Part shown: positions 18,761 through 44,398 of the stretch, one piece after another
Layout of the letters: each line of letters begins with the position of its first letter
How positions within the stretch are numbered: the stretch's first letter is position 1
Source of the DNA: a virus
Virus record (IMG/VR): IMGVR_UViG_3300018008_000002
Span: 1 to 48,167 of that record
DNA: 48,167 nt
Strand: one strand, 5' to 3'
Made by a program: the position numbers and the translations under genes
The notes under the pieces: model-generated
Database searches by the model: none
What the model was told of the DNA's origin: nothing
The model's input: the letters and a program-made list of their open reading frames with translations, nothing else

Positions 18761-19576
18761 ATGAATACGACGCTTAGAACTCCGAAGCATGGCTTCTTCA
18801 TGGGGGCAAAGAAAGACCCTTACGACCCGAGAGACTTCATTTGGAGAGCGGCACCACATCTGCTCGCGGCCGGTCCAGCGTTGCCGGCTCTCAGCGTCTG
18901 CGACGGACTGGCGATGCCTGAGAAGTTTGACCAAGCCAACGAGTCGAGTTGTACAGGCAACGCTGGCGCTCGCTGGCGTGCGTGGTTGGGCCTGAAATTC
19001 CAGCAATACGCTCTTCTTCCGATTCCTTTCTCTCGGCAAGCCTTGTATTGGTGGGAGCGCAATCTGCCGTGGAATGCGGATGCGGACCAGGATAACGGGG
19101 CCAACAGCCGGGACATTTTCTATGTGCTGAAAAACATCGGCATCTGCAATGAGAGCTTCGACCCCTATGAGTACAGCACGCTCTTTAATGACCCTGGCCC
19201 GCAAGCTCTCGCCGATGCCGCCAACCGGAAGATAGGAGCCTATCACCGGATCACTACCGTTTCCGACCTCAAGGCGTGCCTGATTTCAGGCTTTGCCTTT
19301 ACGATGGGATTCCAAGTCTATGACAGCTTTGAGAACATCGGTTCGGATGGAATCTGGAGTCCCAACGTGGATGTGGAGAAGGTGGTCGGTGGCCACGAGG
19401 TTTTCTGCCACGGCTACGACGACACTGTGAACGGCGGTTCGTTTTTGTTCGACAATTCGTGGGGAACTTCCTGGGGCAAAGAGGGCTCGTTCTACATGCC
19501 TTACAGCTTCTTGAACAATTACGACGCGTCGCAGTGGGACGCTTGGACCGGCCACTTCGGGATACCTTGGAAGTGA
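18761..19576 (+). CDS. Papain-family (C1) cysteine peptidase (271 aa)
   Basis: The C1 catalytic set is visible: oxyanion Q58, catalytic C64 (in QANESSCTGNA), H212 (GGHEVFCHGYDD) and N232 (DNSWGTSWG). The N-terminal DPYDPRDF stretch is common in bacterial C1 peptidases. It has no signal peptide. Family members cleave proteins, so the target could be a host or phage protein. As no usual endolysin is found, a lysis or host-takeover role is possible. A membrane peptide gene precedes it and a helical 79-aa gene follows. Confidence 0.85.
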   Translation: MNTTLRTPKHGFFMGAKKDPYDPRDFIWRAAPHLLAAGPALPALSVCDGLAMPEKFDQANESSCTGNAGARWRAWLGLKFQQYALLPIPFSRQALYWWERNLPWNADADQDNGANSRDIFYVLKNIGICNESFDPYEYSTLFNDPGPQALADAANRKIGAYHRITTVSDLKACLISGFAFTMGFQVYDSFENIGSDGIWSPNVDVEKVVGGHEVFCHGYDDTVNGGSFLFDNSWGTSWGKEGSFYMPYSFLNNYDASQWDAWTGHFGIPWK

Positions 19577-21995: not shown

Positions 21996-22139
21996 TCAAG
22001 CCGGTCTCTTCTCTGGCTCGGGCCTATCACTCCACCCGCAGTCCGGGCACTCAAAATGGTCATCCTCGCCCGTTCCCTTCCTTAACACGCAGCGGCATCT
22101 TGGACAGGCGCGGACAATCGGCTGAGCGGTCGGGTTCAT
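21996..22139 (-). CDS. Zinc-ribbon protein (47 aa)
   Basis: C-x2-C-x-C (CPRCRC, residues 12-17) and CPDCGW (31-36) form a textbook zinc ribbon of rubredoxin-like spacing. The ATG overlaps the TGA of the upstream gene. A regulator or nucleic-acid binder is possible. Confidence 0.6.
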   Translation of the reverse strand: MNPTAQPIVRACPRCRCVLRKGTGEDDHFECPDCGWSDRPEPEKRPA

Positions 22140-22504
22140 GGCTTCGGCCTTTGCACCGCCTGTATATCAGCTGGAGGGTCGTCGTCCGGTGGCTCCTCTC
22201 GAAATATCGGCTCAGCCTGTCCGCAGTAGTGAATCTCGCCCTTCTTTCCGTGCCAATGGCGCGGGCAATCCTGATCAATTTGATCCTGCCGTGCCGCTCG
22301 CTTGTCTTCGCGCTTCACGAAGTCCGTCATTCTGCCATGGAAGTCTTTCGCTTCCCGCGCCACATCCGAAAGTCCTTCTCTTGTCATCTGCTCGTGCATT
22401 TTTAGTTCGGTGTAGCCGCCTACGAGTCCAACTACAAGGACGCCGATAGTGATAACGCTCATCAAGTCGATGTGCCAAAACCCTTTTGTGTTGCTGTCAG
22501 CCAC
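22136..22504 (-). CDS. Membrane-anchored protein, possible Rz-like spanin (122 aa)
   Basis: One N-terminal membrane segment (residues about 15-31, SVITIGVLVVGLVGGY) is followed by a charged helical domain of 50 residues and a Pro-rich acidic tail. This type II layout resembles inner-membrane spanins, but no partner lipoprotein is adjacent. GTG start at 22504 lies in the loop of a 6-bp hairpin (22496-22511). GGGAGG precedes it. Confidence 0.5.
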   Translation of the reverse strand: MADSNTKGFWHIDLMSVITIGVLVVGLVGGYTELKMHEQMTREGLSDVAREAKDFHGRMTDFVKREDKRAARQDQIDQDCPRHWHGKKGEIHYCGQAEPIFREEPPDDDPPADIQAVQRPKP

Positions 22505-22516: not shown

Positions 22517-25500
22517 TTAGTAGCACCAGATGTCGAAGTTGCCTGAAGCTGTGAGCGAACTCGGATGATGAAAATACACGAACCCCCAGTTGGCTGCCGG
22601 ACTGTCGATGTAGAGACTTGTCATCCCGGATGCGATACTGTTGGTCGGCGTGAAGAAGCACCGCGACCCAGGCGCGATCGCGTTGTTCGTGAGTTGGTCA
22701 TAAGCTCCAGTGGTCGTTGTGATCGTCCCCAGGTAGTTCGGACCAGGCCCGTGAAAGAACTGGTATCCTGCCGTCCACGTCCCTCCGAACAGGCTGCCAC
22801 CGTTAGATACATTGAAGAGCCCGCTTGCGGTGACGGAATTTTGAGCAGTATTGAGATTGCTGAAAAAGGCGTAGCCCGTACCGGCATCTACTTCCGGCTG
22901 CCCGGACATGCTCCCCCACACACCACCCGCGTCGAGCAAGAAAACGGCTGTGCATCCTGTAGAGCCTCCAGACCACGGGCAGGCTCCCGAGGCGTGCAGG
23001 TTGCCCTCGACGTGGATAGTCTCGTTGGTCATCCCCGCGTTGGTCGAGGCGCTGGTGTCGGGCGTGCAAAAGGCGTTCGCTCCGGTCGGACTCCCGGAAG
23101 TTCCCGTGTTACAAACGTCCAAATGAAAGCAGGAATCGCCAGGCGATTGCGTCTGGCAGTATTCCGAATAGGTGCTGTGCTCAAAAGAGCATCCCGCGCT
23201 GTTCGACGTGTCGCATTGCAGGGTGAACCCCGCCGTGTTGTTCGACGCTTGGTTGCTGTCGAAAACGTTCCCTTCCTCGAAATAGGCGTTGTCTTCCTGA
23301 AGAATACCGCTCAGGCAGTTCGTGCGCGTGACGTTCCGCACATCCATCCAGGCCGAGTCGAGCATCCAGATACCGACATTGTTTCGCGTACCCCCGGCGC
23401 TTGTGTTGCTCGTGTTGCAGTTGAAGGAAATATCATGGATGTAATTGTTATGCGTGGCAAGGTCGAATCCTGAAACCTGCATCTTGAGCAAGGCAATCCC
23501 TGTGTGCGCGCTCGTGGTCATGATCGTGCTCGCCCTGCCGACGCCCTGGACGTTGCAGGCGCGATTAGTGATAGCAGTCGGCGTTGCGGTCATCAAGTAA
23601 TTCCCGGTGGGAAAGTAAAGAGTCCCGCCGTTGGAATTGCAATAAGCGATGGCCGAATTGATCGCGGTCGTGTCAGATGTGCTCCCGTTGCCTGTAGCCC
23701 CATAGGGAGACGCCTGAACGTTAATCATCTGCCCGCCCGCTCCCGTATAGACGCCGGTGATCTCGAATTTCTCTTGACCCCCGCTCGGATTGGACGGAGT
23801 GATAGCTAGGCCAGTTGAATTCGTTGTGCTGGCGATGAAATCCAAAAGCGATTGCGAAGAATTGTCCGCTCCGTTGGTTTGGAGTTCTACCGAACTTCCC
23901 CCTCCACCTCCTCCACCGCCTCCGCTTCCGCCACCCCCCGCAGACTCTCCTACACAAATGTAGCTCACGGTATCTCCGGAGACCGGATTTCCACTGGTAT
24001 CTGAAACGCCAAAGGTAACTTGGCTACCACTGATATTGGTGATAGTCCCTACAAAGTGGCTTGTGCCCACATCGTCATTGGCGCTGCAAGTGTATGATTC
24101 TGCCGAGGCAAAGACAGAACCTCCCGTGAAGGTTACAGGAGCGCAAGTGCTACCACTGATGCAAGTGTCCCTCACAATTTGATTATTAGGGATAGGGTCG
24201 CTCGCGTGATTGTAGCCAATTGGAGGGAAGGAAGCAGTGCAGGTCCTTGACGCCACATCTCCAATGCAACCGCTACCGTGGGAAGCCAAGTCCGTGCCAG
24301 TGTTGTTTACAATTCCCAAGTGTGTGCTTGAAGCGCTTTGGTAATACTCGCTCCAGAGCCAGATCCCGCGAGACACGTCTTCCCATGAACCAAGTTGGTT
24401 GGTAACGTTAATTTCGTTCACAAAACCCATCATCCGGGGGTTCTGGGTCGTGACCCCCCAACATGCTCCTATTCTGATACCATCTCCCACAGGAGTAGAG
24501 GCAAGCGACGAAAGCTCAGGGGACAAAATAATCACATCTTTCGATCCTTGCAGATCAATAGCCGTCCCCTGTCCTTCCAAGTGGGGATTTACTATGTCCA
24601 GTCCTTCGATATTTCCCCCCGCCTCGATCCCCACGGTCCCACACAGCACACGCTCTGCATTGGCGTGGTTTATAATCATCGGGAACATGAGGTTTAGGGT
24701 ATTCGTCGCAACAGTTGTGACTCTGTTGAATTCAACGTCAGTCGGTCCGGTGTTATCTCCAATCCACACGGGCGTATTTGCCGAACAAGCCGCCCCGCTC
24801 ACAACATTGAGCGTGCTTGCGCCAGCGGTTTGAGCACCGGACACGGTTGTAACTCCCTGTGAAGCTGCCACCGCACCGGAACCGCTATCTGACGCTTGCG
24901 ATCCTATGATGCTCGTGGTATCCACAAGTGTTGGTGAGCCATAGACCGTGGCGTAATTTATCGCAACGCTGGTCATGTAGACGCCAACCACGTTGATGAT
25001 GCTGATATTACTGGCATTCCAAGCCACGCCCCCCGTGATAGGAGCACCTTCCCCAACACAAATTCCACCTGTTCCGTAAGCGCAGAACACATCTTGAATG
25101 GTCTCGTTCCATCCACCAAGCGTTTCTACGCCAATTCCGACATAGTTAGTGGAACTTCCGCCCTCATAGTCAATGCCCGAAACGTGTGCTCTGGGGCAAT
25201 TAAGCAGTTGGATCATTCCAACTCTGCTATTGCGATAATTTATAACTCCCACGTCCCGTATCGTCAAGTCGTAAAGTCCCGAGGAAAAGCTGCCCGCTAG
25301 AATAGGCGGAGTGGATGCGGACAGACTGGATGGTGCGGTTATCAGCGACACTTGTGAGCCAGAACCTATAATGCCAGAACCATTATGCTGAACATTGAAG
25401 CACTGCACATTACAGGTGATGTTGACTGAGCCAAGAAGGAATATCACTGGCTTTCCGCCATCGCTTATCGTGGTTGTGAGCGTAAGCGGAGTTGTGTCGG

Positions 25501-26071
25501 AAAAACAGACCACGCCGCCAGTAGAGCCAAGTGACGCCACCGCCGCATTTATCTGCGCGCCCACATCGGCCCCTGTAAAGGTCGAGGCATCCGCGTTGCA
25601 TTGAAAGTTTCCCGAACCTGAAGGCCCCGGAGGTCCTGGCGGTCCCGCGACTTGTCCTTGAACGTATTTCCACAATTCCTGGTCAATTTCTGTCAGCTTA
25701 TCCAACCCTCGCTCGAAAGTCTTATAGGGGATCGGCATGTTGTCCGTGAAAATGCTCTGTTGAGTAAGAGGCGTGGTCCGCTTCACAACTAGAGCGGCCC
25801 CCGTGGGACACGCGGAGTTCAGCGTGACGCTTCCGCCGTTTTGGTAAGCATTGTTTACGGGTGCGACGGTATAGCTCGTGGAGGCGAGAGTTGTCCCAGC
25901 CTGAATGACGGTCAAGGCCGTGGGATCGCTAATCGGGAACGTGAAAGGGAAAGGCCCCGTGCTACCCGTGCAGGTAAAAGAGACGCTTGTAGTCTGACTG
26001 GTGACGGTAGCGCGCGCCGCAAAGGGCACCCACAGCAACGCCAAAAGCATTAAAGATAAGTGCTTTCTCAT
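22517..26071 (-). CDS. Tail fibre/tailspike with signal peptide and two beta-helix regions (1184 aa)
   Basis: Residues 1-21 (basic start, LSLMLLALLWVPFA core, ARA cleavage-like end) form a clear Sec signal peptide. Residues about 25-145 resemble the T7-fibre N-terminal domain that docks on the tail (FPFTFPISDPTALTVIQ onward). A collagen-like GPPGPPGPSG and a first beta-helix follow. After a poly-glycine linker comes a second pectate-lyase-like helix beginning ASPYGATGNGSTSDTTAINS. By hand count 32 Cys lie after the signal. I chose ATG 26071, with GGAG 5 nt upstream; a GTG at 26077 is the alternative. It probably binds or degrades a host polysaccharide. Confidence 0.85.
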   Translation of the reverse strand: MRKHLSLMLLALLWVPFAARATVTSQTTSVSFTCTGSTGPFPFTFPISDPTALTVIQAGTTLASTSYTVAPVNNAYQNGGSVTLNSACPTGAALVVKRTTPLTQQSIFTDNMPIPYKTFERGLDKLTEIDQELWKYVQGQVAGPPGPPGPSGSGNFQCNADASTFTGADVGAQINAAVASLGSTGGVVCFSDTTPLTLTTTISDGGKPVIFLLGSVNITCNVQCFNVQHNGSGIIGSGSQVSLITAPSSLSASTPPILAGSFSSGLYDLTIRDVGVINYRNSRVGMIQLLNCPRAHVSGIDYEGGSSTNYVGIGVETLGGWNETIQDVFCAYGTGGICVGEGAPITGGVAWNASNISIINVVGVYMTSVAINYATVYGSPTLVDTTSIIGSQASDSGSGAVAASQGVTTVSGAQTAGASTLNVVSGAACSANTPVWIGDNTGPTDVEFNRVTTVATNTLNLMFPMIINHANAERVLCGTVGIEAGGNIEGLDIVNPHLEGQGTAIDLQGSKDVIILSPELSSLASTPVGDGIRIGACWGVTTQNPRMMGFVNEINVTNQLGSWEDVSRGIWLWSEYYQSASSTHLGIVNNTGTDLASHGSGCIGDVASRTCTASFPPIGYNHASDPIPNNQIVRDTCISGSTCAPVTFTGGSVFASAESYTCSANDDVGTSHFVGTITNISGSQVTFGVSDTSGNPVSGDTVSYICVGESAGGGGSGGGGGGGGGSSVELQTNGADNSSQSLLDFIASTTNSTGLAITPSNPSGGQEKFEITGVYTGAGGQMINVQASPYGATGNGSTSDTTAINSAIAYCNSNGGTLYFPTGNYLMTATPTAITNRACNVQGVGRASTIMTTSAHTGIALLKMQVSGFDLATHNNYIHDISFNCNTSNTSAGGTRNNVGIWMLDSAWMDVRNVTRTNCLSGILQEDNAYFEEGNVFDSNQASNNTAGFTLQCDTSNSAGCSFEHSTYSEYCQTQSPGDSCFHLDVCNTGTSGSPTGANAFCTPDTSASTNAGMTNETIHVEGNLHASGACPWSGGSTGCTAVFLLDAGGVWGSMSGQPEVDAGTGYAFFSNLNTAQNSVTASGLFNVSNGGSLFGGTWTAGYQFFHGPGPNYLGTITTTTGAYDQLTNNAIAPGSRCFFTPTNSIASGMTSLYIDSPAANWGFVYFHHPSSLTASGNFDIWCY

Positions 26072-26073
26072 AT

Positions 26074-26946
26074 TCACTCCACGTAGAACACAGCCGTCAA
26101 TCCCGATGCCGAGCCCATCAGAGAAATGTTGGTGCCATCAACCGCCGTCCACCAGATGTTTCCAGCGGAGGTCATAGATGGAATGATTACGGTTGGGACG
26201 TGGTTCAAAGTATGAGCCACCTTCCACGGCTTGATTGGCTTAGGCGAGATCACTTTCAACGCAAGCAACGTCACCGCTGGTGCAACTGGCGTGGTGGCTG
26301 TTGTGGTAAACGATAGATCACTCCCGTAGCTCGTGCCCACACTATTTGTTGCGAAAGCCCGATAGTAATAGAGCGTGCTCGGAGTTAGGCTAGATAAAGA
26401 GCTTGTAAAAGGCGTAGCCGTGCCGTCAGATGTGCAAGGTGTCGTTGGATTGGCCGTCGTCGCATAGCAGACGCCCTCAGATGTCACCGATGCGCCACCG
26501 TTGGAACTGACTACGCCGCCGGAACTGGCACTGGTCGATGTGATGCTAGTAGCGGTCGTGGTTGTGACGGTGGGCGCGCTAGAACCGCTGGGCGCACTCC
26601 ACGTCACCACGACTGACGAAGTTGGTGTTGCGCTGGCTTCGCTGGAATACTGGCTCTCCGATGTAGCGTAATAGCACCCCGTCCCGCATGAGACCCCGGC
26701 AAATGCGGTCACCACGTAGTAGTAGGTTACGCCATGCGTGACCGAGTTGTCCGTGTACGAGCAACAGGCAACCGGGCCTACGTTTCCCGGAGGGTCGCCA
26801 AGACTGCCTGTCCAGTTCAATCGTGTGTAAGGCCCGCCTGACGTAGTGCTGCGATAGACGTTGTATCCAACGGTTGGGGAAACGGCGTCGAGTCTCGCGC
26901 CCGAAATCAGAAGTAGCACGATGATGCCTTTTGCAATCCACCTCAT
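26074..26946 (-). CDS. Secreted fibronectin-III-like tail protein (290 aa)
   Basis: A signal peptide (residues 1-21, AKGIIVLLLISGARLDA) is followed by two FN3-like domains: about 25-110 (GYNVYRSTTSGGPYT, then TYYYVVTAF) and about 125-210 (VTTTTATSI onward, ending LYYYRAFATNSVG). A C-terminal 70-residue domain contains a NIWWTAVDGTNISL stretch. Six Cys follow the signal by hand count. GGAGG precedes the ATG; start overlaps the luxR-type stop. It probably decorates the tail or aids adhesion. Confidence 0.75.
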   Translation of the reverse strand: MRWIAKGIIVLLLISGARLDAVSPTVGYNVYRSTTSGGPYTRLNWTGSLGDPPGNVGPVACCSYTDNSVTHGVTYYYVVTAFAGVSCGTGCYYATSESQYSSEASATPTSSVVVTWSAPSGSSAPTVTTTTATSITSTSASSGGVVSSNGGASVTSEGVCYATTANPTTPCTSDGTATPFTSSLSSLTPSTLYYYRAFATNSVGTSYGSDLSFTTTATTPVAPAVTLLALKVISPKPIKPWKVAHTLNHVPTVIIPSMTSAGNIWWTAVDGTNISLMGSASGLTAVFYVE

Positions 26947-27164
26947 ATCTCATTCCTCCAAACCGCCCGAGCCAATAAGACTCGCTCGTTGTAATCAGGG
27001 TTTAGAAATCCTTTCCCTCTTTGGGTTCTGGCATAGACCTCGGCCAGATGATTCTTCACAGTCTGCTGGGCGATCCTGAGTTTAAGAGCGATACACTCAT
27101 TGGTCAATCCTTCTCCGACCATCTGGGCGATCTTTTTCTGTCGAACGCTGAGTATCTTCGCCAT
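26943..27164 (-). CDS. Solo LuxR/GerE-type HTH regulator (73 aa)
   Basis: Residues 3-48 (LSVRQKKIAQMVGEGLTN, then IALKLRIAQQTVKNHLAEVY) match the LuxR C-terminal DNA-binding domain: the TNECIA helix and the TVKNHL recognition helix. No receiver or autoinducer domain is present. ATG at 27164 follows a 14-codon frame whose stop is 7 nt upstream. It lies inside the receptor-binding operon and may regulate late genes or host genes. NarL/GerE-like single-domain regulators are known in bacteria but I know few in phage tail cassettes. Confidence 0.82.
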   Translation of the reverse strand: MAKILSVRQKKIAQMVGEGLTNECIALKLRIAQQTVKNHLAEVYARTQRGKGFLNPDYNERVLLARAVWRNEI

Positions 27165-27171
27165 GACGTTT

Positions 27172-27216
27172 TCACCATCGCCTCTCAATCAGGCCGTCAA
27201 TCGGGCGCGTTCCCAT
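27172..27216 (-). CDS. 14-codon leader minigene
   Basis: A strong AGGAGG ribosome site lies 4 nt before an ATG that opens a 14-aa frame (MGTRPIDGLIERRW), ending 7 nt before the luxR-type ATG. The luxR gene has no ribosome site of its own this good, so translation may be coupled. It could also be a chance frame. Confidence 0.35.
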   Translation of the reverse strand: MGTRPIDGLIERRW

Positions 27217-27289
27217 CCGTCCTCCTGCCTCTCGCGGTTGAATCACCCCTAGAACAGCCACGGATGGCTGCGCACGAAGGCCAAATCGC

Positions 27290-29668
27290 CTATTGAATAA
27301 ACGCAAATCCCTTCGCTGCCAAAGACGGAGCATTCTGAAAACTGCCACCTTTCCAATTCCCGACATAGGCATTCGACGTGGCGGTTGTAGGATTCACCAG
27401 CAATCCTGGGGAGCCGCCGACGATATCGTAGTCAGGGGTTAAAGTTTTGGCGATTAAGCCGCCTATGGTGCCCGAGCAACCAAGCGTCGCCGAGCATTGA
27501 TAAACATAAATATTTCCCCCGACAATCGCTGCGGTCAACGTATCGCCCACATTTACGGTAATGGAAGGCAAGGGCGGGGACGAGGTTAGTCGCGTGAAAA
27601 GCGTTCCGATCTTTTTATAAATGACTAGGAGCGCAGGACTCCCCGTGCTGCCAGTCCAGTAAATTTGATATGCAGCATAACCCCCTGTCATTGCTCGCAG
27701 GTCAAGCCCTACGACGGAGCTTGCCGCGCACGCATCAACGGTGATTTGGGACCACTGGTCGGTGGGCCAAGTAATCGCGCTGTAGTAGCTGTCGCAATTA
27801 TCACCCGCTATCGAGCATGTGACTTCGTGCGACACGATTTGGGCGCTGGTATAGCCCGAAGCGGACGAAAGCTGCGTCCAGTTTGCGCCTAACGATCCGT
27901 CAGCACGGGCGAAATTGTCGCTGGCAAGGGTATTAAGGTTTGCGTTCGAGAATGGAATGGGAACATCGTTCACACCCTCATAGCCAGAGACAAGCTGTTG
28001 GAAGTTGTAACCGGAGGCCACTGCCAGATTTACAGTGTAAGCTGCTCCCCCGTCACCCTGTGTGCTTGCTGAGAAGAACATGTAGCAGTTCCCAAGTGCC
28101 GCCGGACAGATAACATCCTGGTCGGCCACTTGCCCGTTAGCTTGTCCGACTCCCTCACTTAGCTGGGTGCGGTAGAAAATCTCAGAGGGAAATTCCGTCC
28201 ATGGCCCCGTAAGGCTGGAGCTTATGATTCGACCGAAATCATTTGGCAGGGTCGCGTTATCTGTGGTCGGAGTATAAGGAGGCACTAACGTGGTATAGCC
28301 GTAGTAAACGCTACCCACCTGTCCATAGGAGGAATTGCCCGAGAAAAACGGAATGGTCGGCGGCGCAGTCGTATTGGCGGCCCAGGTGATGCCATCGGAG
28401 GACGTAGCCAAGTTGCTACCCACGACGATGTTGGAGCCATTGTCTTGGCCGTTATAATACCCATACCAAGTTCCGCTGACGATGTTTAGTACGTTAAGCT
28501 GGCAGACCGAGCAGGTCGTGCTGCTGCTGTCCCACGAGTTCCCGTCAGGCACAATGGTAGCTGATTTTACCTTTGTCCATGTTCCGCCCAGCGATGAAGC
28601 CGTCCACACATCAATTTGCCGCGCGTAATCCCCTTGGGAATTATAGGCGTAGTAGGTCGAGCCATTCTGATAGACTCGGTTTCCCCATGCTCCCGCAATC
28701 ACTGGATTGCTGCCGCCATTTGTACAGGCCATGGGCAGAGTAGTGGTACATTCGGCATAGTTTACGCCCACAGGCGCATTCGCAGGGCCGCTCGTATAAA
28801 GCAGTCCAAAGCACGGACTGGAGATGATCGCACAGCCGCTCGCTAAATAGAAGGCATTCGGCTGCTCGGGATGCGCGTATGCTCCGCTGCCAGGATCGGA
28901 AAGCAAGACACCTTCATCAACCCAGGCGTTGAAGTTCGACGGAGCGGGGAGGCCAGTAATGGCAAGGGAAACGCTCGCAAAAGGAACGCTCGAGGTGTTA
29001 TTACCCGCGGTCGGAGTGATAGGTGCTGCGGTGGCTTGGGAGAAATACTCAATGTTGGCTCCATAGACGGCTGTAAAGGCGTTGGGGCTTGTCCCAGCAG
29101 TCATGGCCCCCCCACTGGCCCCAACCGCGAATCCCAAGATGAGATCGCCGTTATGCGATGGGCTTACCTGTGTGAGTGTGATGCAGTTTGCTCCCGACGC
29201 GCCTCCGGTCTGATTCGCCTGACCGCTGTACCCACTGCCGAGACCGCCATCTATAGCAGCCGTTCCCCCGTAGGCATAGTAGAATTCCGCCGCCCAGGTT
29301 GCATCATTGGCGTGTCCAGTAGTCCCATGCACCGTCACCTGATTGCTGGCGGTAGTATGGGTATTGATGGCATACCAGACCTCCATCGAAATGGCGTTGC
29401 TGCCCGCGCCAAGAAGCCCTTTACCGGAGTCATAGTAAATGTTCCCTGCCGTGTCCGTAGGAACTTGAGCAAAAGCCGTATTGCCGTTTTGGACCGCATG
29501 GACAACGATGATGCTCCCTGGAGTCAAGGCGTTGGCAAAAGCGGCAGTAGTGCAGGACGTTGGCGTCGCGCAGGACGTATTGCTCCCTTGGTTATATTTC
29601 TGCCAGGTAGCGCAAAACGCCGAACTGGACAGCATAAGGCCAAGAATGAACAAAATCGGTTTCTTCAT
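27290..29668 (-). CDS. Secreted tail protein with beta-propeller and lectin-like domains (792 aa)
   Basis: A Sec signal (KKPILFILGLMLSSSAFC, cleavage near AFCATW) starts the protein. An N-terminal beta domain (to about 230) is followed by a repeated pattern of strands around residues 260-560 (GNRVYQNGSTYYAYNS, WTASSLGGTWTKV, SYGQVGSVYYGYTT) like the blades of GH43/GH32-type propellers. The C-terminal 200 residues start DNFARADGSLGANWT, typical of lectin-like sandwich domains. 16 Cys in close pairs follow the signal. ATG at 29668 is coupled to the upstream gene. It may be a glycan-binding or glycan-cleaving tail protein. Confidence 0.75.
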   Translation of the reverse strand: MKKPILFILGLMLSSSAFCATWQKYNQGSNTSCATPTSCTTAAFANALTPGSIIVVHAVQNGNTAFAQVPTDTAGNIYYDSGKGLLGAGSNAISMEVWYAINTHTTASNQVTVHGTTGHANDATWAAEFYYAYGGTAAIDGGLGSGYSGQANQTGGASGANCITLTQVSPSHNGDLILGFAVGASGGAMTAGTSPNAFTAVYGANIEYFSQATAAPITPTAGNNTSSVPFASVSLAITGLPAPSNFNAWVDEGVLLSDPGSGAYAHPEQPNAFYLASGCAIISSPCFGLLYTSGPANAPVGVNYAECTTTLPMACTNGGSNPVIAGAWGNRVYQNGSTYYAYNSQGDYARQIDVWTASSLGGTWTKVKSATIVPDGNSWDSSSTTCSVCQLNVLNIVSGTWYGYYNGQDNGSNIVVGSNLATSSDGITWAANTTAPPTIPFFSGNSSYGQVGSVYYGYTTLVPPYTPTTDNATLPNDFGRIISSSLTGPWTEFPSEIFYRTQLSEGVGQANGQVADQDVICPAALGNCYMFFSASTQGDGGAAYTVNLAVASGYNFQQLVSGYEGVNDVPIPFSNANLNTLASDNFARADGSLGANWTQLSSASGYTSAQIVSHEVTCSIAGDNCDSYYSAITWPTDQWSQITVDACAASSVVGLDLRAMTGGYAAYQIYWTGSTGSPALLVIYKKIGTLFTRLTSSPPLPSITVNVGDTLTAAIVGGNIYVYQCSATLGCSGTIGGLIAKTLTPDYDIVGGSPGLLVNPTTATSNAYVGNWKGGSFQNAPSLAAKGFAFIQ

Positions 29669-31311
29669 GGAAACACCGTCTGGTTGCAAGTGAGTTGGAA
29701 TGTGGCCTGCTCCACGGTGGATGCCGCTGTGATGAAAAACCCAAGCGTGTCGCCTGCTGCGACCGCTGTTGAGGTGAAATCTGTAACCACTGTACTCCGC
29801 ACGAGCGTCCCAGCGGAGATGCTAACTCCTGCCGTTGAAATCGAGTTGGAGGCAAGCGTGGGAAGTGCCGTACCACCTGTAGCTATTTTGGCGGTTCGAA
29901 CGGTCATAGTCCCTTGATTGACCATGATCTGCCAGCCAGTGATGGCGCAAGCGAAGGGAACGGTTATATATCCCGCCTCTGCTGTGCTCAAGGGTAGATT
30001 GGTGGTGGCGTCACCAAAGGAGTAGCCCAGTGCGCGGTTCATGCCATTGCTGATTGTCGTGGCCGTGGCTGCGTTGCCGGTGGTGCCGAGTCCTGTGACA
30101 TCAACTCGCCATACAGAACTTGCAATCGCATTGATCGTCGCACGCTGCCCATTGGTAAGCGCGAAACTTGTTTGTGCCGTCGTCGGTGTGGTGGTGTCAG
30201 CATAGAAAATATTGAACGTCGAGGCGGTTTCTCGGCCGTAAGTCAGGCTACCGCCGCTGGCGTTGTAGACCTTAAATACCGTCCCTACGCCACAACCCGA
30301 GTCTCCCACGTCAGGCACCACAGGGGCCGACGCACCGGAATCAAATTCCACGGTAGCGCCCCTGTCAACCAAGGCCGTACTCGAATCACAGGCCAGCATG
30401 TAGGCGCTTGAAGTTACCGGACTGTTGGGGCTCACGCCGATGCCGGGGGAGAGATACGCTGCCGCCGCGCCGTTTGAGGCTGTTTTAATCTGGCCGGTCT
30501 TTGTGCCTACCTGAGAGCCTAGAGTTGAAGTAGTGGCCCAGTTGGCATCAGCATACAGAGTGCCCGTGCCAGGACCACCTCCGGTCGGGCATGTCTGAAA
30601 ACTTGGGGTTGTCGTTGCATAGCTCGATGCCCCGCTCATCAGGCATTGACCGTTGGCTGTGGGCGTCATCCAAGTCTTTGCGGCGTTGCCAGCGCCGAAA
30701 ACAGAATAGCTCGTGTAGGACGCAAGGTCTGTGGCCGTGGCTGCGTTGCCTGTTACGTTGCTTGGCTGGGCACAATTATTACTCCCCGAAGAAAGTCCCT
30801 GAGAAAAATTAACTCCCGTACAGGCAGACGGATAGCTTGCTAGATTCGTGGCCGTGGGAACAGCAGGAAAGCTCACAAGGTCCAAGGCTGTCGGCGCGAT
30901 GGCGCTACCGGATGGCTGCCATGCGTAAACAAAGGTGTGCCCGGTCGTGGTCGGGCTGGCAATGAAGGTTGTGGTGCTGGCCGCACTCTGATAAGGTGCC
31001 GAGCCGACTCCACCGCCTGAAAGGTTCGTCGCAGTTCCGACCGATGCCCCAGGAAGCTGTAGCACGTTGCTGCTGTCCACATAAATGCAGATGTCCGCAG
31101 TGTTCGCGGCATTCCGCCAGCAAATCTTGTCGGTGTTATTGGCCAAGCGAAGCTGGCCGCTGAGTGCGGGATTGGCGGTCGGAGAAGTTAGGGGGAATGA
31201 GACGCTACTGCCGCTGCTACTGCCACCATTGAAATTGGTCGGACCTACAGTTTGCCCGTAGGCTTGGGAGCACAACAAAAACCAGACCACAAACCAGATT
31301 GTTTTTCGCAT
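29665..31311 (-). CDS. Secreted tail-fibre-like protein with GNAATAT repeats (548 aa)
   Basis: A signal peptide (MRKTIWFVVWFLLCSQAYGQ) leads to a Ser/Thr/Gly-rich fibre. The repeat unit GNAATAT or GTATNL followed by LAS or SG occurs at least five times (about residues 90, 155, 190, 410), like repeats in phage fibres. A C-terminal domain of about 130 residues (AEAGYITVPFACAIT onward) may form the tip. Ten Cys follow the signal by hand count. It overlaps the following gene by ATGA. Confidence 0.78.
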   Translation of the reverse strand: MRKTIWFVVWFLLCSQAYGQTVGPTNFNGGSSSGSSVSFPLTSPTANPALSGQLRLANNTDKICWRNAANTADICIYVDSSNVLQLPGASVGTATNLSGGGVGSAPYQSAASTTTFIASPTTTGHTFVYAWQPSGSAIAPTALDLVSFPAVPTATNLASYPSACTGVNFSQGLSSGSNNCAQPSNVTGNAATATDLASYTSYSVFGAGNAAKTWMTPTANGQCLMSGASSYATTTPSFQTCPTGGGPGTGTLYADANWATTSTLGSQVGTKTGQIKTASNGAAAAYLSPGIGVSPNSPVTSSAYMLACDSSTALVDRGATVEFDSGASAPVVPDVGDSGCGVGTVFKVYNASGGSLTYGRETASTFNIFYADTTTPTTAQTSFALTNGQRATINAIASSVWRVDVTGLGTTGNAATATTISNGMNRALGYSFGDATTNLPLSTAEAGYITVPFACAITGWQIMVNQGTMTVRTAKIATGGTALPTLASNSISTAGVSISAGTLVRSTVVTDFTSTAVAAGDTLGFFITAASTVEQATFQLTCNQTVFP

Positions 31312-31320
31312 GGTTCCTCG

Positions 31321-31713
31321 CTACCGACTGACCAGCCAACTTATAGACGCCCCCGTTGTCGAAGCCACGACATAGAACTCATTCTGATTGTTTGGCGCGC
31401 AGTAAGAATTTCCGGCCGCGAGTTCCATGCCCGTCGAAGTCGTCACGCCCTTTCCCCCGAGATACACGTTGATTGAGTTCCCGGCGAGCGCCTTGATGCA
31501 AATGCTTCCGTAGCTCGTCCCGGTCACAACGGCAGCCGTGGCGGTTACGGCCTGTTGGCCGCTGAGGACATACCCGATGGCTTGGGCGTGCGCCGGCTGC
31601 AACGGCGAATTAATGAGCACTCCAAATGTCAACCCCAAGGCTAAGGCCCCAGCCAAGAAAAATGTCAGAAAGCCCGCCAGCGCCCATCTGATTTTCATGT
31701 TTCGCATTTTCAT
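31321..31713 (-). CDS. Small secreted protein of the tail cassette (130 aa)
   Basis: A long hydrophobic N terminus (residues about 9-30, FLTFFLAGALALGL) ends in PAHAQA, a good signal-peptidase site. The mature 90 residues are beta-rich with two Cys (GSICIKA and NSYCAPN). The ATG at 31713 overlaps the ATP-grasp stop; an ATG at 31707 has better spacing from GGAG. It may be a small surface or tail-tip protein. Confidence 0.65.
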   Translation of the reverse strand: MKMRNMKIRWALAGFLTFFLAGALALGLTFGVLINSPLQPAHAQAIGYVLSGQQAVTATAAVVTGTSYGSICIKALAGNSINVYLGGKGVTTSTGMELAAGNSYCAPNNQNEFYVVASTTGASISWLVSR

Positions 31714-32975
31714 TGCTCCTTCCCCATGATTATCCCCCAATCGGCCAGTTTTGCAAGAGTTTCCCTCAACGCGGGGATGCTGTGCGCGAACGACTCCACC
31801 TGAATACCTTTGATTTGAAGGCTTATTTCCTCAGCCTCGGCAAAGCATTCCTCCAAGTTATCGCCATGCGTGACCACCGCCGCTACGCGCGGACCAGCAC
31901 CTTGAGGCATGATCCATGTACCGTTCTCGAACCGTGAGGCGTACCGGAGCTTGATGCGGTCCCGGAATTCTTCGGGGAATTCGAGGCGCAGGGGATTCTT
32001 GTCGGCCCACTCACTGTGAACGATCAACTCAAATCCGTAGCGGCCGGCGTATTTCGGCTCGACAAGTTTCCCAGCCGCGCCCTCCCAAAGAATCTCTGGC
32101 AGGTTGCGCAGCATATTCAACTGCAACTCGAACGGCGGAGAACCGGCTCGGCAACAGGGATCCCCCAGCCAAACCTCATCTTTTCGGGTCCGACACTCCA
32201 GCGACAAGAAATTCCGGTAGCCGTACTTTTTGAACGTCGGCGACAATTCATAGTAAATGTCGGTCAACTGGGAAGGCAACTCGCTCCAGGATTTCACTGC
32301 GGCAACGTAGGCTTCGCCCTTTTCTTCCGTCCCCAACAAACTGACAGTTGGGTAGGCGCCGTCAATGCAGTGCGTGTCGATGGCAATGTCAATGGTGTCC
32401 GGCAGATCGTCCTCAACAATGAACTGCATCGCCTCCGCAACCGGCCCAAGGTCAGCCTCGATACGGTCCAGACGGTTTTTGACCCCTTCATAGCCCGACA
32501 GCGCGAAGGTTTCAGTGTCTTTGCGCGTCAGGTTAATCTTGATCCATAGCTTGTCTTTGCCCCGGCTCTGGATGTAGCGGCGAAGTTCCGTGATGCCCTT
32601 AGCAATTTTGTATGGCCCTTGGGGGATGTCCAGTTCCTCGAAATGCGTCTTGGCTTCGCCGCGATAGTTCTCCAACTCGTCCCCGCTGCGCGAGCCAAAG
32701 ACCCGCTTGCCTTTGCCATCTAGGTACTCTTGCAGTGGCCCTTGAAACAGGTCGGGGAAAATGAACAGGTCAACGTCATCCACAATCCCCCAAATGTCGT
32801 TCACGCGCTGGAACGAAAAGCCTTCGCCGATTTCGACTTGGTAAGACGACGGGAAAGCCGACACCCACGGCGCGGTGTAGTAGACCTTGCCGAAGGATGC
32901 GCTCAGCGTTTCGGCAAGTTCCGAGAAGATGCCGTTGTCAACCACTGCGACTGAGTGCGTTTTGTGGTCGCTCAT
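31710..32975 (-). CDS. ATP-grasp ligase, PurD-like (421 aa)
   Basis: The protein looks like an ATP-grasp enzyme of glycinamide ribonucleotide synthetase type. The core shows a K-rich strand LWIKINLTRKDTETF (residues 143-157), an acidic strand FIVEDDLPDTIDIAID (185-200) and the metal-site motif SLECRTRKDEVWLGDPCCR (258-276). The C terminus has a VAAVVTHGDNLEECFA segment like PurD. The catalytic details differ from PurD, so the substrate may be another amine or carboxylate. It begins the tail cassette operon behind an extended -10 promoter. It may modify a tail or surface molecule; a nucleotide role is also possible. Confidence 0.72.
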   Translation of the reverse strand: MSDHKTHSVAVVDNGIFSELAETLSASFGKVYYTAPWVSAFPSSYQVEIGEGFSFQRVNDIWGIVDDVDLFIFPDLFQGPLQEYLDGKGKRVFGSRSGDELENYRGEAKTHFEELDIPQGPYKIAKGITELRRYIQSRGKDKLWIKINLTRKDTETFALSGYEGVKNRLDRIEADLGPVAEAMQFIVEDDLPDTIDIAIDTHCIDGAYPTVSLLGTEEKGEAYVAAVKSWSELPSQLTDIYYELSPTFKKYGYRNFLSLECRTRKDEVWLGDPCCRAGSPPFELQLNMLRNLPEILWEGAAGKLVEPKYAGRYGFELIVHSEWADKNPLRLEFPEEFRDRIKLRYASRFENGTWIMPQGAGPRVAAVVTHGDNLEECFAEAEEISLQIKGIQVESFAHSIPALRETLAKLADWGIIMGKEQ

Positions 32976-33990: not shown

Positions 33991-36900
33991 TCATTGTGCC
34001 ATCGCCTTACGGCTCCGAGAGACGCCGGGGATATGAAATTTACCGCCGCCCTTAGACTTGGCCCCTTCATGGATAGTTGTCGATCCGGCTATCCCTAGAA
34101 GAAAATCCTTGTACGTGTAGTCGTGTTCGGAATTGTTGAGCATCCCTTCGATGATGTCCTTGATGGAGAAAGGAACGGGTGCGGCCTCTTCAACGGCAAA
34201 CGCGGCTTGGCGGGCGGTCTTCTCCACAAACCCTTGTTTGGGAGTCGTGATCGGCCTGCTTTGCCAGTCCTTGTTGATGTAGAGTCTCGGGGCAATGCTC
34301 AACAGCGGAGCGGCTTTAAACGCCATAAAATCGACAGTGCCAGTGAGTCCACCATCTTTCTGTACCCTGTTCATCCAAGTGATGAAGTCACGCGGGGCAC
34401 CGGCGAAGAAGATGTTTGAGTAGACTTCTTTGCCTTGCTTGTCTTTCCCAAGGTAGACTTCCGTAGGGTGTTTGGAAAGCTGCCCTGTGAACGCTAGGCT
34501 TGCAGCAGCCGTCATGGTCAGACCGGTGGCAGTAGATTTTAGCCAAAACGCACGCGCCGCTGCTCCACCCGGACCGCGCTCTCCAATATATTTGAGATTG
34601 GCGAAATTCGAGAATGTCCAGTCAGGCGCCAACATGAAAGCCCGCGCCAGTTCTCGGGCGTTTGGCCCCCAACCCATGATCTCCCAATTCAGACCGCCGT
34701 AAACGGCATTGACTTCCTTGGCAATGCTGCGCATGGCCGCGCCATATTCCGCATCAGTCGCGTCGAGATGTTTGGCGAGCCAAGCGGAGCGTTTTAGAGA
34801 GAAGTCCATGACCTTGAACTTGCGTTGTATGACATCGAAGGTTTCATGGGTCAGCGCTTGCGCCGCCGCGTCCAGTTGCTTGACGCCAACTATGCCCCGC
34901 ATCGTGTCGAGCCGCGTGGGGAGGCTGGAGGGTTTGAGACCTTTATAGGCTTCATACGCGGGGCCTGTCATCGTTGTTTCGGTTCCCCAAAGCGCGGCTT
35001 CTCGTTCCCCCTCTTCAAACTCTGGCGAGGAATTGTCTGACCGGAGCGCTTTCACGAAGTCAGTCAACTTCATATTGCTCCAAGCCATCAGCGACAGAGC
35101 TTTCATGTGGAACACAGAGAGCCCCAGCTCCATCGACTTGATGTAGCTTTGCATCGCCCGGACAGCCTTGAAACTGGCAACACCCGACAAAACATTTTGC
35201 TCTAGGATCGGCCGCATGGCGTCCGAAACCACTTGGGGGACATAAAACCCTTGCTGAATTGACTTCGTTTCCCCGGTTCTGGCATCCTTGGTTATGATCG
35301 ACTTGTGGGTTCCCGGAAGTTCCCGCCAATCGGCAGGCACATCGCTACGGCTTCCGTTCTTGCCCAATTCGGTATTTTTCAATTCGGTCTTGAAAATGCT
35401 GGTGGCTACTGCCGTGGCGTGACGGTCGCCGTAGACGGAGAGTTCATCCAAGGCATTGAAGGTGCGAGCCTCGAACTCGCCGCTTTTCAGTGGGTCGAGA
35501 ATCCTCAGATATTCCCTGCGAATCGCGTGAGGAGTTCTTGCCGTGAAGCGCGGACGCCCTTCCCGGCGAGCCTCTTCTTCATCTTCCAGGGCCTTCGTGA
35601 ATAGGCGCGGGCTATACCGTTCAGGGTCGATGCTGCTCTCTAAAATCCCAACTTGCCGTCCGAGACCGAGCGCATTCGTGAAGTATTCCGTCATTTGCTG
35701 GTCTGCCTGTAAAAGCTCAGGAGAGGGACTCAACGCTCTTTCCATCGAAGGGATGTACGCTTTTAGTTTTTCGTTCTTCCCGGCGCGGACTTCCTCGATG
35801 GCAGCGCGCAATTCGTCGGGAGAGCCCTTATAGTCACGAAAGAAGGTCAAGGCTTCCTGGTCGCGGAAGTCAGGTATCAGCTTCGCAAGGCGCGTGCGCA
35901 GTTGTTCGGCTGCGGCACGCAGCATGTTTCGAGGCCCAACGAACAGGTCTATCAACACTGCCTTGCCATACTTGGAGCTTTGAACTCCAGCCTTGATGTC
36001 GTTTAGCTCTGGCCGTCTTCCTGCTACAAACTTCGCCAGTTGCGGCGACCATGCGGCTACACCAGGGTCGCCTTCGGCCATAGTTCGATTCTGAACCCGT
36101 TCGCGGGCCTGCCTGTAATCGTCGGAATGGAATTCCGATTTTTCGTCTTCGGTGATCTCGGACCACTTCGCGTAGACCTCTGGCTCATTTTTCTTGACCC
36201 AGGACTTCGCTTGCTCGCGATTAAGGAACTTGCCTTCGGGGGTGGTAAAGCCCCGTCCAGATTTCGGTGGTTCGATTGCCTCGCCCGTTTGTTCCTTCAT
36301 TAACTCCGCAGCACGGTCGATCACCTGCTGCAAATGACTATCTGGTTGCGCTAATACCCTGTCAGCCAGAGTTGGGGCGCGTTCCAATTCTTCCAACCCT
36401 ACAGGTTTCCGGCCCAACATCTTCTCGGCAAGTTCTGGGTGGCCGTCGCCCTCATCCGCTTCCATAACTGCCTTGCCAGATGTCGCCGCATTTGCGGTGG
36501 ATATTTCGGTGCTATCGAAAGCGGCACCAGCAGTGCGGGTGAATTGAATCGCTGGACGCAATCCCGGCTCCATGTCGGGAATAACGGGAGGTTGCGCTTG
36601 GAGTTTTGCTACCGCCTCAGCCGGCGGAGTGCCATCCTTGGCGTACACGTCCATAAGCGCACGCTGAGCGTTCGCCCGCGTCATCTCGGAGGGAAGCGAG
36701 AGCAATCCCAATCCTGCCACGACAGCGGCAGTGCGGGTAAAGTCCTCCATTTTTGGTACTCGCCAATCGAGGAGCGAGCCAACAGTTGTCAAGGCTGCCG
36801 ACTGGTACAGGGCATGAACTCCGAAGCGGCCTAAGACACTTCCTGCCAACGCTCCGGGAACGGGCAACCCGCCCGCTAGAACCGCGGCCTCACCTGTAAT

Positions 36901-37500
36901 CGCGCCTTTGGCGCCAGCCCATAACGTAGCAGCCGCGCGATCAGTCAGTTCACCAAAACTCTTGACGTTGCCTTTCTGGTAGTGATCCATCAAACCTTTG
37001 CGCAATCCGGCATCTAACGCGAAGGCAAGAGGAATGCCGACCTCGGGACCGCCCAGGAAAGACCCCCCGATAGCTGCACCCAAAAACACCGGATCGCTCG
37101 CAAAACTCGACACGTCGTGGACGAAGTTCTGCAACAGGTCGTGAGACTCGAAAGGGTCTGGCGCACGGCCCCGGATAAGCATTGCCAGCGGAGTTTCCTC
37201 CACACCAGTTTCAGCCGCACGGCCCGCATCCGACCAGTAGTCTCCGCCAACTTCCTGCAACTGACTCTTAATTTTGTCATTGTGCTGATAGGCAAAGCCG
37301 GGGTCAACGCCGAGCATTTTGGAATGGATCGCGGCCTGAAAGGCTTGGCCCGCATCGACGCGCGCAGGTGAACTTGCGCGAGCCGGAAGCGGATTGCCGG
37401 AAGCATCCCATCGAGTTATGGCTGGACCTTGAGGCTGCTCAGGGGCTTGGAGAGGGTTGCCCTGAGCGTCCCAGCGGGTTATTGTGGGGGAAGTTCCCAT
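33991..37500 (-). CDS. Large internal virion (ejection) protein (1169 aa)
   Basis: Size, Cys-free helical sequence and position after two other internal proteins suggest the largest protein of the DNA-ejection apparatus, like T7 gp16. The N terminus holds two copies of ITRWDAxGNPL (residues 7-17 and 28-38). A hydrophobic stretch lies around 130-270 and a helical body follows. ATG at 37500 has GAGGGAAC before it and overlaps the upstream gene by 22 bp. No transglycosylase motif is evident. Confidence 0.7.
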   Translation of the reverse strand: MGTSPTITRWDAQGNPLQAPEQPQGPAITRWDASGNPLPARASSPARVDAGQAFQAAIHSKMLGVDPGFAYQHNDKIKSQLQEVGGDYWSDAGRAAETGVEETPLAMLIRGRAPDPFESHDLLQNFVHDVSSFASDPVFLGAAIGGSFLGGPEVGIPLAFALDAGLRKGLMDHYQKGNVKSFGELTDRAAATLWAGAKGAITGEAAVLAGGLPVPGALAGSVLGRFGVHALYQSAALTTVGSLLDWRVPKMEDFTRTAAVVAGLGLLSLPSEMTRANAQRALMDVYAKDGTPPAEAVAKLQAQPPVIPDMEPGLRPAIQFTRTAGAAFDSTEISTANAATSGKAVMEADEGDGHPELAEKMLGRKPVGLEELERAPTLADRVLAQPDSHLQQVIDRAAELMKEQTGEAIEPPKSGRGFTTPEGKFLNREQAKSWVKKNEPEVYAKWSEITEDEKSEFHSDDYRQARERVQNRTMAEGDPGVAAWSPQLAKFVAGRRPELNDIKAGVQSSKYGKAVLIDLFVGPRNMLRAAAEQLRTRLAKLIPDFRDQEALTFFRDYKGSPDELRAAIEEVRAGKNEKLKAYIPSMERALSPSPELLQADQQMTEYFTNALGLGRQVGILESSIDPERYSPRLFTKALEDEEEARREGRPRFTARTPHAIRREYLRILDPLKSGEFEARTFNALDELSVYGDRHATAVATSIFKTELKNTELGKNGSRSDVPADWRELPGTHKSIITKDARTGETKSIQQGFYVPQVVSDAMRPILEQNVLSGVASFKAVRAMQSYIKSMELGLSVFHMKALSLMAWSNMKLTDFVKALRSDNSSPEFEEGEREAALWGTETTMTGPAYEAYKGLKPSSLPTRLDTMRGIVGVKQLDAAAQALTHETFDVIQRKFKVMDFSLKRSAWLAKHLDATDAEYGAAMRSIAKEVNAVYGGLNWEIMGWGPNARELARAFMLAPDWTFSNFANLKYIGERGPGGAAARAFWLKSTATGLTMTAAASLAFTGQLSKHPTEVYLGKDKQGKEVYSNIFFAGAPRDFITWMNRVQKDGGLTGTVDFMAFKAAPLLSIAPRLYINKDWQSRPITTPKQGFVEKTARQAAFAVEEAAPVPFSIKDIIEGMLNNSEHDYTYKDFLLGIAGSTTIHEGAKSKGGGKFHIPGVSRSRKAMAQ

Positions 37501-39323
37501 GTTCCCTCGTCTGGATTCCACACGGCTTGTTCAGGCACGTTATTTGGACGCTTGGGCACAGGCATCGCGCCAGGGGATGAGGCAGGTCGAGTGCCCCACG
37601 CCGACCTCGCTGGAATGTTGTAGGTTCTGCCAGTAGGTGTCCATGGTCCAGTCTCGGTAGGCATCCCGACCGCTCGCATCATGTTGTTGATGTATTCTCC
37701 GATTTCTTGTTGGCTGGCCTGGTCAAGCATTTCGTTGGTCTGCTTCACGACATCGAATCCCTTCAAGCCCTTCATCTCCACTTCCCGCTGAAGTATCGCG
37801 TGGAGTTCCATCTTTCGCAGACGCTTCCGCTCCTGCACTTCTGCGGAATCCCCTGGTTGCGCTTGCAGAGGGGCGAAGGCGTTAATGAGACTGAGCGATT
37901 CCTTCATAGACGGGTCTTTGCTGGCAGCGTTTACCGCTGATTCCACGCGCTTGATGTCTGCGGGGAGAATTTGACCCGCTCCGACACCCGCCCTGGAATA
38001 GAGTTCTGAAATGTCAATCTTCTCTCCGTTTCCGATGGCCTGATAGTAGGACAGGGCAGTATTGCGGCTGTTGTTTCTAGCGTTCTTCAAGTTTTCCCAA
38101 TCTTTGAATCTCTCCTCGGCCCGCTGCTCTCGCACGTCAGCACGCTCGGCTCGAACTTCGGCGCGTTGAGCGTTCAACTCTTGCCGTTCGATGCGTACAT
38201 TGGTCTGCAACATCTTTTCCAGCGATGCCGCCGTACTCTGACTTATTTGATGGGTATCCCGCAACTGCCAGATTTGCGAAAGGGACAACTTGTGCTCGTC
38301 AACTTGGGGACCGTATTTGTCCAGGTCGTCACGGTTCTGCGCCGCCTGAATTTCTTTTCGGTCTGCATCGTCGGCTCTCAAGTGATTGCGAAGTGCGTCC
38401 CCGCCCAACGTCGCGTTGATGTGATCGGGGTCGGAAGCGGGCAGCCCCTCGCGGCGGTCAACCTCTTTGATCGCTCCCTGCAAATCGAATGACCCATCGG
38501 CACGGCTATACATCTTGCGGAACTCAGGAAGTTCCTTGTCAACGAACTGCTTTACTCCTACCCTCTCCATGAAATCTGTGTTCACACGGAAAGCCGCTTC
38601 GAGCTTTTGCTTGTATTCAGCCTTCTTGTGCGAATCGAGGTCTGGATAGTGCTCGGGGTGTTGAATAAGATCATCTAGGCCAGACTTGTTATCTGCGGGA
38701 TTGGGACTGCTCGAAAATCTGTCCAGAAGTGTCTCTTGCGATGCCACGCGAAACGCATCTTTAGCGGCTTCGGCTTGCCAGCCATCCATCAACTTCGCCC
38801 GCACCGAACCATCCAAGGCGTTATTCCACTTAGCAGAAGCGGCGGCGGCACTTGCAGGGTCAACGACTTCATTCAAAAGTGCTTTGTTCAGATTGGTAAG
38901 ATGCACCTGATTTTCTTTGCCCAACAGATCGACTTGTCTCATGTTGGCCTGGTGCTCAAAGTGGGGAAGATAGCCTTGGGCAGTCAATTCAATGTCGCGC
39001 GAGGCGGGCGATTTGCCCCATTCCTGCATGATGTGGGCTACATTGTCGTTCGCTTGTTTAAGCACACCTTCCACATCGCGAGAGTTTGTAGTCTTGGCAA
39101 GATCGTCCTGCATGGCCAGATAAGCGGCATTTAGTTGGTTCTCTGCGGCGAGTTTGTCAACGTGCTCTTGCGCTTTGCGAACATAGCTCCCAATCCCGGT
39201 AGCGAGTTGCCCGAATTCTTCGCCCAGGCGTTCGACGGTCTCACCCGGTCTCGCGGCCTCTGCCGGGGACATGTACGGCTGGTTTACGGGTTGAAGGGTC
39301 GGGACTCCGGGTATCTGCGGCAT
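37479..39323 (-). CDS. Internal virion protein (614 aa)
   Basis: A helical, charged protein without Cys that has a long coiled coil around residues 375-430 (QRAEVRAERADVREQRAEER) and a Pro-rich C terminus. It lies between the small and large internal virion genes, like T7 gp15. AGGATAACTC precedes the ATG. No family signature is visible beyond this. Confidence 0.65.
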   Translation of the reverse strand: MPQIPGVPTLQPVNQPYMSPAEAARPGETVERLGEEFGQLATGIGSYVRKAQEHVDKLAAENQLNAAYLAMQDDLAKTTNSRDVEGVLKQANDNVAHIMQEWGKSPASRDIELTAQGYLPHFEHQANMRQVDLLGKENQVHLTNLNKALLNEVVDPASAAAASAKWNNALDGSVRAKLMDGWQAEAAKDAFRVASQETLLDRFSSSPNPADNKSGLDDLIQHPEHYPDLDSHKKAEYKQKLEAAFRVNTDFMERVGVKQFVDKELPEFRKMYSRADGSFDLQGAIKEVDRREGLPASDPDHINATLGGDALRNHLRADDADRKEIQAAQNRDDLDKYGPQVDEHKLSLSQIWQLRDTHQISQSTAASLEKMLQTNVRIERQELNAQRAEVRAERADVREQRAEERFKDWENLKNARNNSRNTALSYYQAIGNGEKIDISELYSRAGVGAGQILPADIKRVESAVNAASKDPSMKESLSLINAFAPLQAQPGDSAEVQERKRLRKMELHAILQREVEMKGLKGFDVVKQTNEMLDQASQQEIGEYINNMMRAVGMPTETGPWTPTGRTYNIPARSAWGTRPASSPGAMPVPKRPNNVPEQAVWNPDEGTWELPPQ

Positions 39324-39326
39324 GAG

Positions 39327-39785
39327 TTATCCTGCCAGCGGCACACCTGATGGCACAGCCTGGAATAAAGGCGCAATGCTCTTGGTCATTCCACTTAGGA
39401 ACGTACCAATTCCGCCCATTTCCCCTTGCCAAGCGGCGATCTTTCCGTAATAGCGCTGGAGATTCGCTTCCTCAGTTCCCGCTTGCTCGATTTGTTCGCC
39501 TTGCTGAGCGCCACGGGCGGAAGTGGCTGCCATGACCAGGAGGGGTGAGCCACTGGCAACATCGACTCCCGCCCGAGCGTAGGCGGAGGCTTGCTTGCCG
39601 AGCAGGGCAGAATACCTTTGCTGGCTGGCGATCATCTGCGCCTGCATGTTTTGAAGGGTTATGGTGGCGTTGTAATCGTATGCCGACTTTTCCGCTTGAC
39701 CAGCTTCGTACTGTCCGATGCCAGCGAAGAGCGAGGAAGCCACGCCCAGTCCGGCAAAAGCCCCTTGCTCATTTTGAGGCGTCAA
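39327..39785 (-). CDS. Internal virion protein, T7 gp14-like (152 aa)
   Basis: The pattern YDYNATITLQNMQAQ..ASQQRYSALLGKQ, then YARAGVDVASGSPLLVM and a GEMGGIGTFLSGM end is common in the smallest internal virion proteins of podoviruses. TTG at 39785 has GGAGG 5 nt upstream; a TTG at 39806 is also in frame. It overlaps the GNAT-like gene by 17 bp. It probably forms the first part of the ejection channel. Confidence 0.7.
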   Translation of the reverse strand: MTPQNEQGAFAGLGVASSLFAGIGQYEAGQAEKSAYDYNATITLQNMQAQMIASQQRYSALLGKQASAYARAGVDVASGSPLLVMAATSARGAQQGEQIEQAGTEEANLQRYYGKIAAWQGEMGGIGTFLSGMTKSIAPLFQAVPSGVPLAG

Positions 39786-44397: not shown

Positions 44398-44398
44398 T

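Follow-up and report, generated by a model that had tools for sequence, protein, structure and literature searches.

The assembly of tailed phages is taught as a cytoplasmic process. Two described systems bear on the idea of a fibre that leaves the cytoplasm: the receptor-binding virion protein pIII of filamentous phages, which has a type I signal and passes through Sec (PMC4823517), and the endolysins that certain tailed phages send out by the same pathway (PMC6116005). The latter, which include the signal-arrest-release (SAR) endolysins, are tailed-phage proteins that use host Sec, but they are lysis enzymes and not virion fibres. In the open-licence literature we found no tailed phage whose tail fibres are reported to pass through Sec, although the scope of that search was limited and the absence is weak evidence. 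Here, we describe a tail fibre/spike protein, P1, and its neighbours P2 to P5, encoded in a stretch of 48,167 bases that makes up IMG/VR virus record IMGVR_UViG_3300018008_000002 (hereafter the window). The genome is that of a podovirus with T7-like architecture, in which portal, terminase, major capsid, tail tubular and internal virion proteins are recognized with PHROGs. P1 is predicted to carry a Sec signal peptide (SP) directly ahead of its virion-anchor domain (Table 1). Sec export of P1-type fibres is well supported by comparison of related sequences, and we hold it probable, with moderate confidence, that the fibres are exported, oxidised outside the cytoplasm and attached to the virion at lysis.

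P1 shares with T7 gp17-type fibres and tailspikes (Carin1 Dpo31, ZP6, phiV10, BPP-1 Bbp9) a single-copy anchor domain, a gene position between the internal virion proteins and the lysis genes, and exchangeable C-terminal bodies. The P1 anchor is homologous to the T7 gp17/PHROG 1640 fibre anchor. Residues 24–134 of the GTG-start form of P1 align with PHROG 1640 ('tail protein'), starting at position 2 of the profile (phrog_1640, E=6.9e-15), and an AlphaFold2 model of the anchor, built with 20 homologs, has a predicted local distance difference test (pLDDT) value of about 90 across its first 80 residues. Foldseek searches with this model retrieve the fibre anchors of the solved tail complexes of LME-1 (9efk), Carin1 (8ck1), P-SCSP1u (8i4m) and T7 (7boz). 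The first-pass annotation had taken the T7-type N-terminal domain as an argument for virion attachment, and these matches uphold that argument. The body of P1 contains a beta-helix motif also found in known spikes; PDB sequence matches of P1 were discarded as meaningless, being mostly Gly/Ser linker aligned with antibody linkers. The likeness to pIII lies in a receptor-binding protein with a Sec signal. Unlike pIII, which is an integral membrane protein of phages extruded at the membrane, P1 has no hydrophobic helix at its C-terminus (...SGNFDIWCY), and unlike the filamentous phages its genome is that of a tailed double-stranded DNA phage with portal, terminase, head and T7-like tail genes.

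Signal peptides were evaluated with a scorer of n-, h- and c-regions trained on 30 well-known E. coli signal peptides; these score 8.4–32 when left out one at a time, and the highest score among 54 cytoplasmic proteins of E. coli is 7.7. T7 gp17-type fibres begin with Met at the anchor and lack an SP in 11 of 11 cultured cases (T7, ZP6, BcepC6B gp18, HTVC028P, phiVC8, Ab31, DC33, Carin1, phiV10, BPP-1 and Tyrion; scores −18.6 to +1.5), whereas every distinct member of the P1 clade (17/17) has a predicted SP before the anchor. The latter figure combines the window with 16 distinct sequences among 19 near loci; these loci, and 10 distant ones, were recovered by searching viral contigs with an alignment of SP-bearing anchors. 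All 19 near loci carry the signal (scores 8.4–22.4, lengths 18–23 residues) and all 10 distant loci lack it, and the SP-bearing anchors form a single clade (Shimodaira–Hasegawa-like approximate likelihood ratio test, SH-aLRT, 100). In the alignment, Met1 of the SP-less fibres coincides with the predicted cut point (A↓TVT versus MTV or MTI). Mean identity among the near homologs is 40% in the SP versus 57% in the mature domain, so the signal property is retained though its sequence diverges; similarly, the C-terminal bodies vary among relatives while SP and anchor stay constant, which indicates that the signal is tied to the anchor rather than to any one enzyme. A Shine–Dalgarno sequence stands at the SP start in all 19 near loci, and GGAG precedes the ATG of P1 at 26071. 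An internal start yielding an SP-less fibre was ruled out, as no start codon is conserved at the mature end in the near loci. This conservation among relatives is the main and decisive evidence for the predicted export signal. Signal scores in related genomes had been set out beforehand as a test of Sec export; none of the near loci falls below threshold, and the export reading of the first-pass annotation thus emerges strongly supported. Among the cultured phages, Limnohabitans phage DC33 (L088, PQ492659) is filed under Inoviridae in its record, a taxonomy line that looks wrong because the phage has T7-like tail and fibre genes.

Within the window, P1, P3 and P4 score above threshold and above all 54 cytoplasmic controls, and they show the basic n-region, hydrophobic core and small residues at −3/−1 expected of Sec and signal peptidase I substrates; their predicted signals are solid. 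P5 also scores above threshold but may be an uncleaved anchor, because its hydrophobic stretch is unusually long. P2 does not pass, lying below the highest cytoplasmic control; of the five Sec signals claimed in the first-pass annotation, four thus score above threshold, one of them perhaps an anchor. Start codons were adjusted for P1 (ATG 26071), P3 (ATG 29668) and P5 (ATG 31713). A lipoprotein form of P3 (SSAFC↓A) was ruled out by inspection, since there is no lipobox. It is very improbable that the hydrophobic N-termini arise by chance, from wrong start codons or from composition. The sub-threshold P2 would fit such an artefact, as would the result of shuffling residues 2–30 of P1, whose observed score is reached by 24 per 1000 shuffles (2.4%; the counts for the others are 18 for P2, 0 for P3, 0 for P4 and 3 for P5); however, neither the cytoplasmic (0/54) nor the cultured fibre controls (0/11) reach threshold, and conservation already contradicts it, with the same pattern in 17 distinct homologs and ribosome-binding sites at the SP start.

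The N-termini could also be hydrophobic segments that stay uncleaved in the virion or membrane, for instance to hold fibres in place or to help membrane-bound assembly. The long stretch of P5 would suit this explanation, and some signal ends, such as LFG↓TVT in loci L069 and L070, are non-ideal cleavage sites. We nevertheless regard it as improbable: residue −1 is A in 15 and G in 2 of the 17 distinct homologs (window included), the lengths stay within the narrow range given above, and the domain after the signal begins exactly as Met1 of ordinary fibres, which fits removal rather than retention.

The genes that share the cassette slot with P1-type fibres are mostly predicted to encode SP-bearing proteins as well. 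At most loci, at least two SP-bearing, Cys-containing proteins are encoded between an ATP-grasp-like gene and the lysis genes (three in L070, three in L074 and two in L075, for example). The ATP-grasp-like gene is conserved in nearly all relatives, where it directly precedes the fibre cassette and marks its start. A segment of P4 is common to an SP-bearing protein of 1714 residues in G014, and the C-terminal part of P5 also occurs in an SP-bearing protein of L049.

The cysteines of these proteins offer a second, indirect line of evidence. Recomputation reproduced the coordinates and the Cys counts of 32, 6, 16, 10 and 2 for P1 to P5 (after the signal in P1, P3, P4 and P5), all even, that had been reported at first pass. 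The even parity of the five window proteins alone is weak support because its chance is 1/32. Across a wider set of 39 non-redundant, Cys-containing proteins that score as SP-bearing, 31 have an even Cys count after the signal (binomial p=1.5e-4) as against 49 of 120 proteins without an SP (Fisher p=2e-5). These figures are approximate, since the former set was filtered by score only and probably includes a few false positives, and the control came from simple open reading frame calling. In addition, a pair of cysteines (Cys34 and Cys88 in P1) is present in the SP-bearing anchors, with the second one shifted in L068 and L074, and is missing from the aligned SP-less anchors. Disulfides in the exported proteins are thus predicted indirectly, from the occurrence of the anchor pair with the SP and from the even-Cys bias. 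The first-pass annotation had argued for disulfides from a further contrast with Cys-free internal virion proteins. The contrast is true as stated for the proteins at 33991 and 37479, and the one at 39327 has no Cys either, but it is not specific: in cultured podoviruses, none of 22 internal (ejected) virion proteins, drawn from nine phages, has more than 2 Cys (range 0–2), and T7 gp15 and gp16 have none. Cys-poor internal virion proteins are therefore ordinary in podoviruses, and the contrast with the cassette carries no weight.

Signal peptides also occur in a second, unrelated family of fibre-related proteins. BcepC6B gp19 ('tail fiber protein') and PBR31 orf035 ('putative structural protein') score 21.4 and 19.0. 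They resemble P1 in bearing a predicted Sec signal on a fibre-related protein whose gene adjoins a tail spike gene, and differ from it in that they have no T7-type anchor and that their phages also own a conventional SP-less tail spike, encoded just ahead of the SP-bearing gene (BcepC6B gp18/gp19, PBR31 orf034/orf035). This family (loci L086:5932-6741 and L094-L173) has relatives encoded on 114 contigs, and the SP is found in 32 of the 59 5'-complete members that were read; others that share the C-terminal domain lack it, among them a longer fibre, L147. In the paper describing PBR31, the gp40 esterase is the one protein for which a signal peptide is mentioned (PMC10975493). Because the second family is unrelated, fibre-related proteins appear to have gained export signals on more than one occasion.

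The conventional tail spike in the second-family phages makes a secreted, non-virion role possible there, and the same could be proposed for P1 and its neighbours: the proteins would be exported but never join the virion; instead, secreted or bound to the envelope, they would degrade glycans or mask receptors, in superinfection exclusion or in clearing debris or matrix. A weak GH43-like segment in P3 (PF04616, E=6.9e-4, under the curated cut-off) and the beta-helix-like body of P1 agree with this proposal. It accounts for export and for the cysteines but not for the retained anchor, since P1 keeps a complete virion-anchor domain that would be needless for a free enzyme or decoy. Moreover, all 19 related records that gave a match yielded exactly one T7-type anchor apiece, and these records, all of which may be fragments and which lie within the clade apart from the distant, SP-less G015, contained no second, SP-less fibre with which the virion could be equipped. 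We therefore consider a non-virion role unlikely, albeit the strongest of the alternatives.

Export followed by docking at lysis would account for the signal position and the Cys pattern, and also for an intact anchor in phages where no further fibre was found. P1, as the sole T7-type fibre, would be made as a Sec preprotein together with at least P3 and P4, and probably P5. The preproteins would be translocated, cut by signal peptidase and folded with disulfide bonds outside the cytoplasm, while head, tail tube and internal proteins would meanwhile be assembled in the cytoplasm. The exported fibres would come into contact with the virions when the cell is opened by holin and endolysin, and would dock on the tail through the mature anchor, which starts at the position equivalent to residue 1 in ordinary fibres. 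Signal cleavage, disulfides, docking at lysis and virion attachment are all steps that we infer. Several points weigh against this scheme. Large fibres would need to pass Sec unfolded and trimerise outside the cytoplasm, and the signal score is home-made. Three P1-type proteins have odd Cys counts (15, 15 and 33), and the SP-less BPP-1 Bbp9, which lies outside the anchor alignment, carries a single Cys close to the first of the two positions. SP and Cys pair furthermore coincide on one branch of the P1 family, and therefore do not represent repeated independent gains within it.

Table 1. Positions in the window of the cassette proteins, the parts of P1 and the adjoining genes.
Feature	Position	Strand	Remarks
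P1, tail fibre/spike, 1184 residues	22517..26071	-	Predicted Sec SP, T7-type anchor domain and beta-helix-like body; 32 Cys after signal
P1 signal peptide MRKHLSLMLLALLWVPFAARA	26009..26071	-	Predicted cleavage A↓TVT; score 15.1
P1 mature T7-type virion-anchor domain	25652..26008	-	Cys34 and Cys88 (numbering from ATG 26071)
P2, 290 residues, FN3-like	26074..26946	-	6 Cys; hydrophobic N-terminus, SP score 6.2 (below threshold)
P3, 792 residues	27290..29668	-	16 mature Cys; predicted SP MKKPILFILGLMLSSSAFC↓ATW, score 21.5
P4, 548 residues, fibre-like	29665..31311	-	GNAATAT-type repeats; 10 mature Cys; predicted SP MRKTIWFVVWFLLCSQAYG↓QTV, score 12.8
P5, 130 residues	31321..31713	-	2 Cys; SP or N-terminal anchor, score 18.2; hydrophobic stretch of about 24 residues
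Small protein	22136..22504	-	Single N-terminal hydrophobic segment, not an SP (score -5.1); directly after cassette
ATP-grasp-like gene	31710..32975	-	Upstream of cassette; weak phosphoribosylamine-glycine ligase 2yw2 profile match, E=5e-4

The minus-strand order after the internal virion proteins, which span 33991-39806, is the ATP-grasp-like gene followed by P5, P4, P3, P2 and P1. P2 has a sub-threshold match to PF16656 and a match to phrog_6977, minor tail protein (E=6.7e-4); a single-sequence structure model of P3 reaches a pLDDT of only 33 and is of no use. The small protein directly after the cassette is possibly a lysis or spanin-like gene product, as its position beside the cassette suggests. 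Elsewhere in the window, a papain-family (Peptidase_C1) cysteine protease is encoded on the plus strand at 18761-19576, and a protein of 200 residues with sub-threshold C2H2 zinc-finger matches (43849-44451) adjoins the tail tubular genes; its counterparts in relatives have several Cys. The tRNA and Rfam scans of the window gave no matches. A search of the genome-contig collection, aimed at host identification, recovered nothing related to either the fibre anchor or the tail tube protein.

We judge it an evenly balanced question whether these uncultured phages represent a tailed double-stranded DNA lineage with two-compartment virion building, in which head and tail tube would be built in the cytoplasm and a disulfide-bonded receptor-binding set outside it, the two being joined only at lysis, with a second, unrelated fibre family having gained export signals independently. 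If export and docking at lysis are true, the tail of these phages would be built differently from the textbook route, which would account for the evolution of Cys-rich fibres that depend on disulfides. Host Sec, signal peptidase and Dsb/VKOR would become phage host factors, and the appropriate way to express such fibres for study would change. For annotation, the resulting rule is to seek a signal peptide ahead of the fibre anchor, and BcepC6B and PBR31 are cultured systems that offer a related case.

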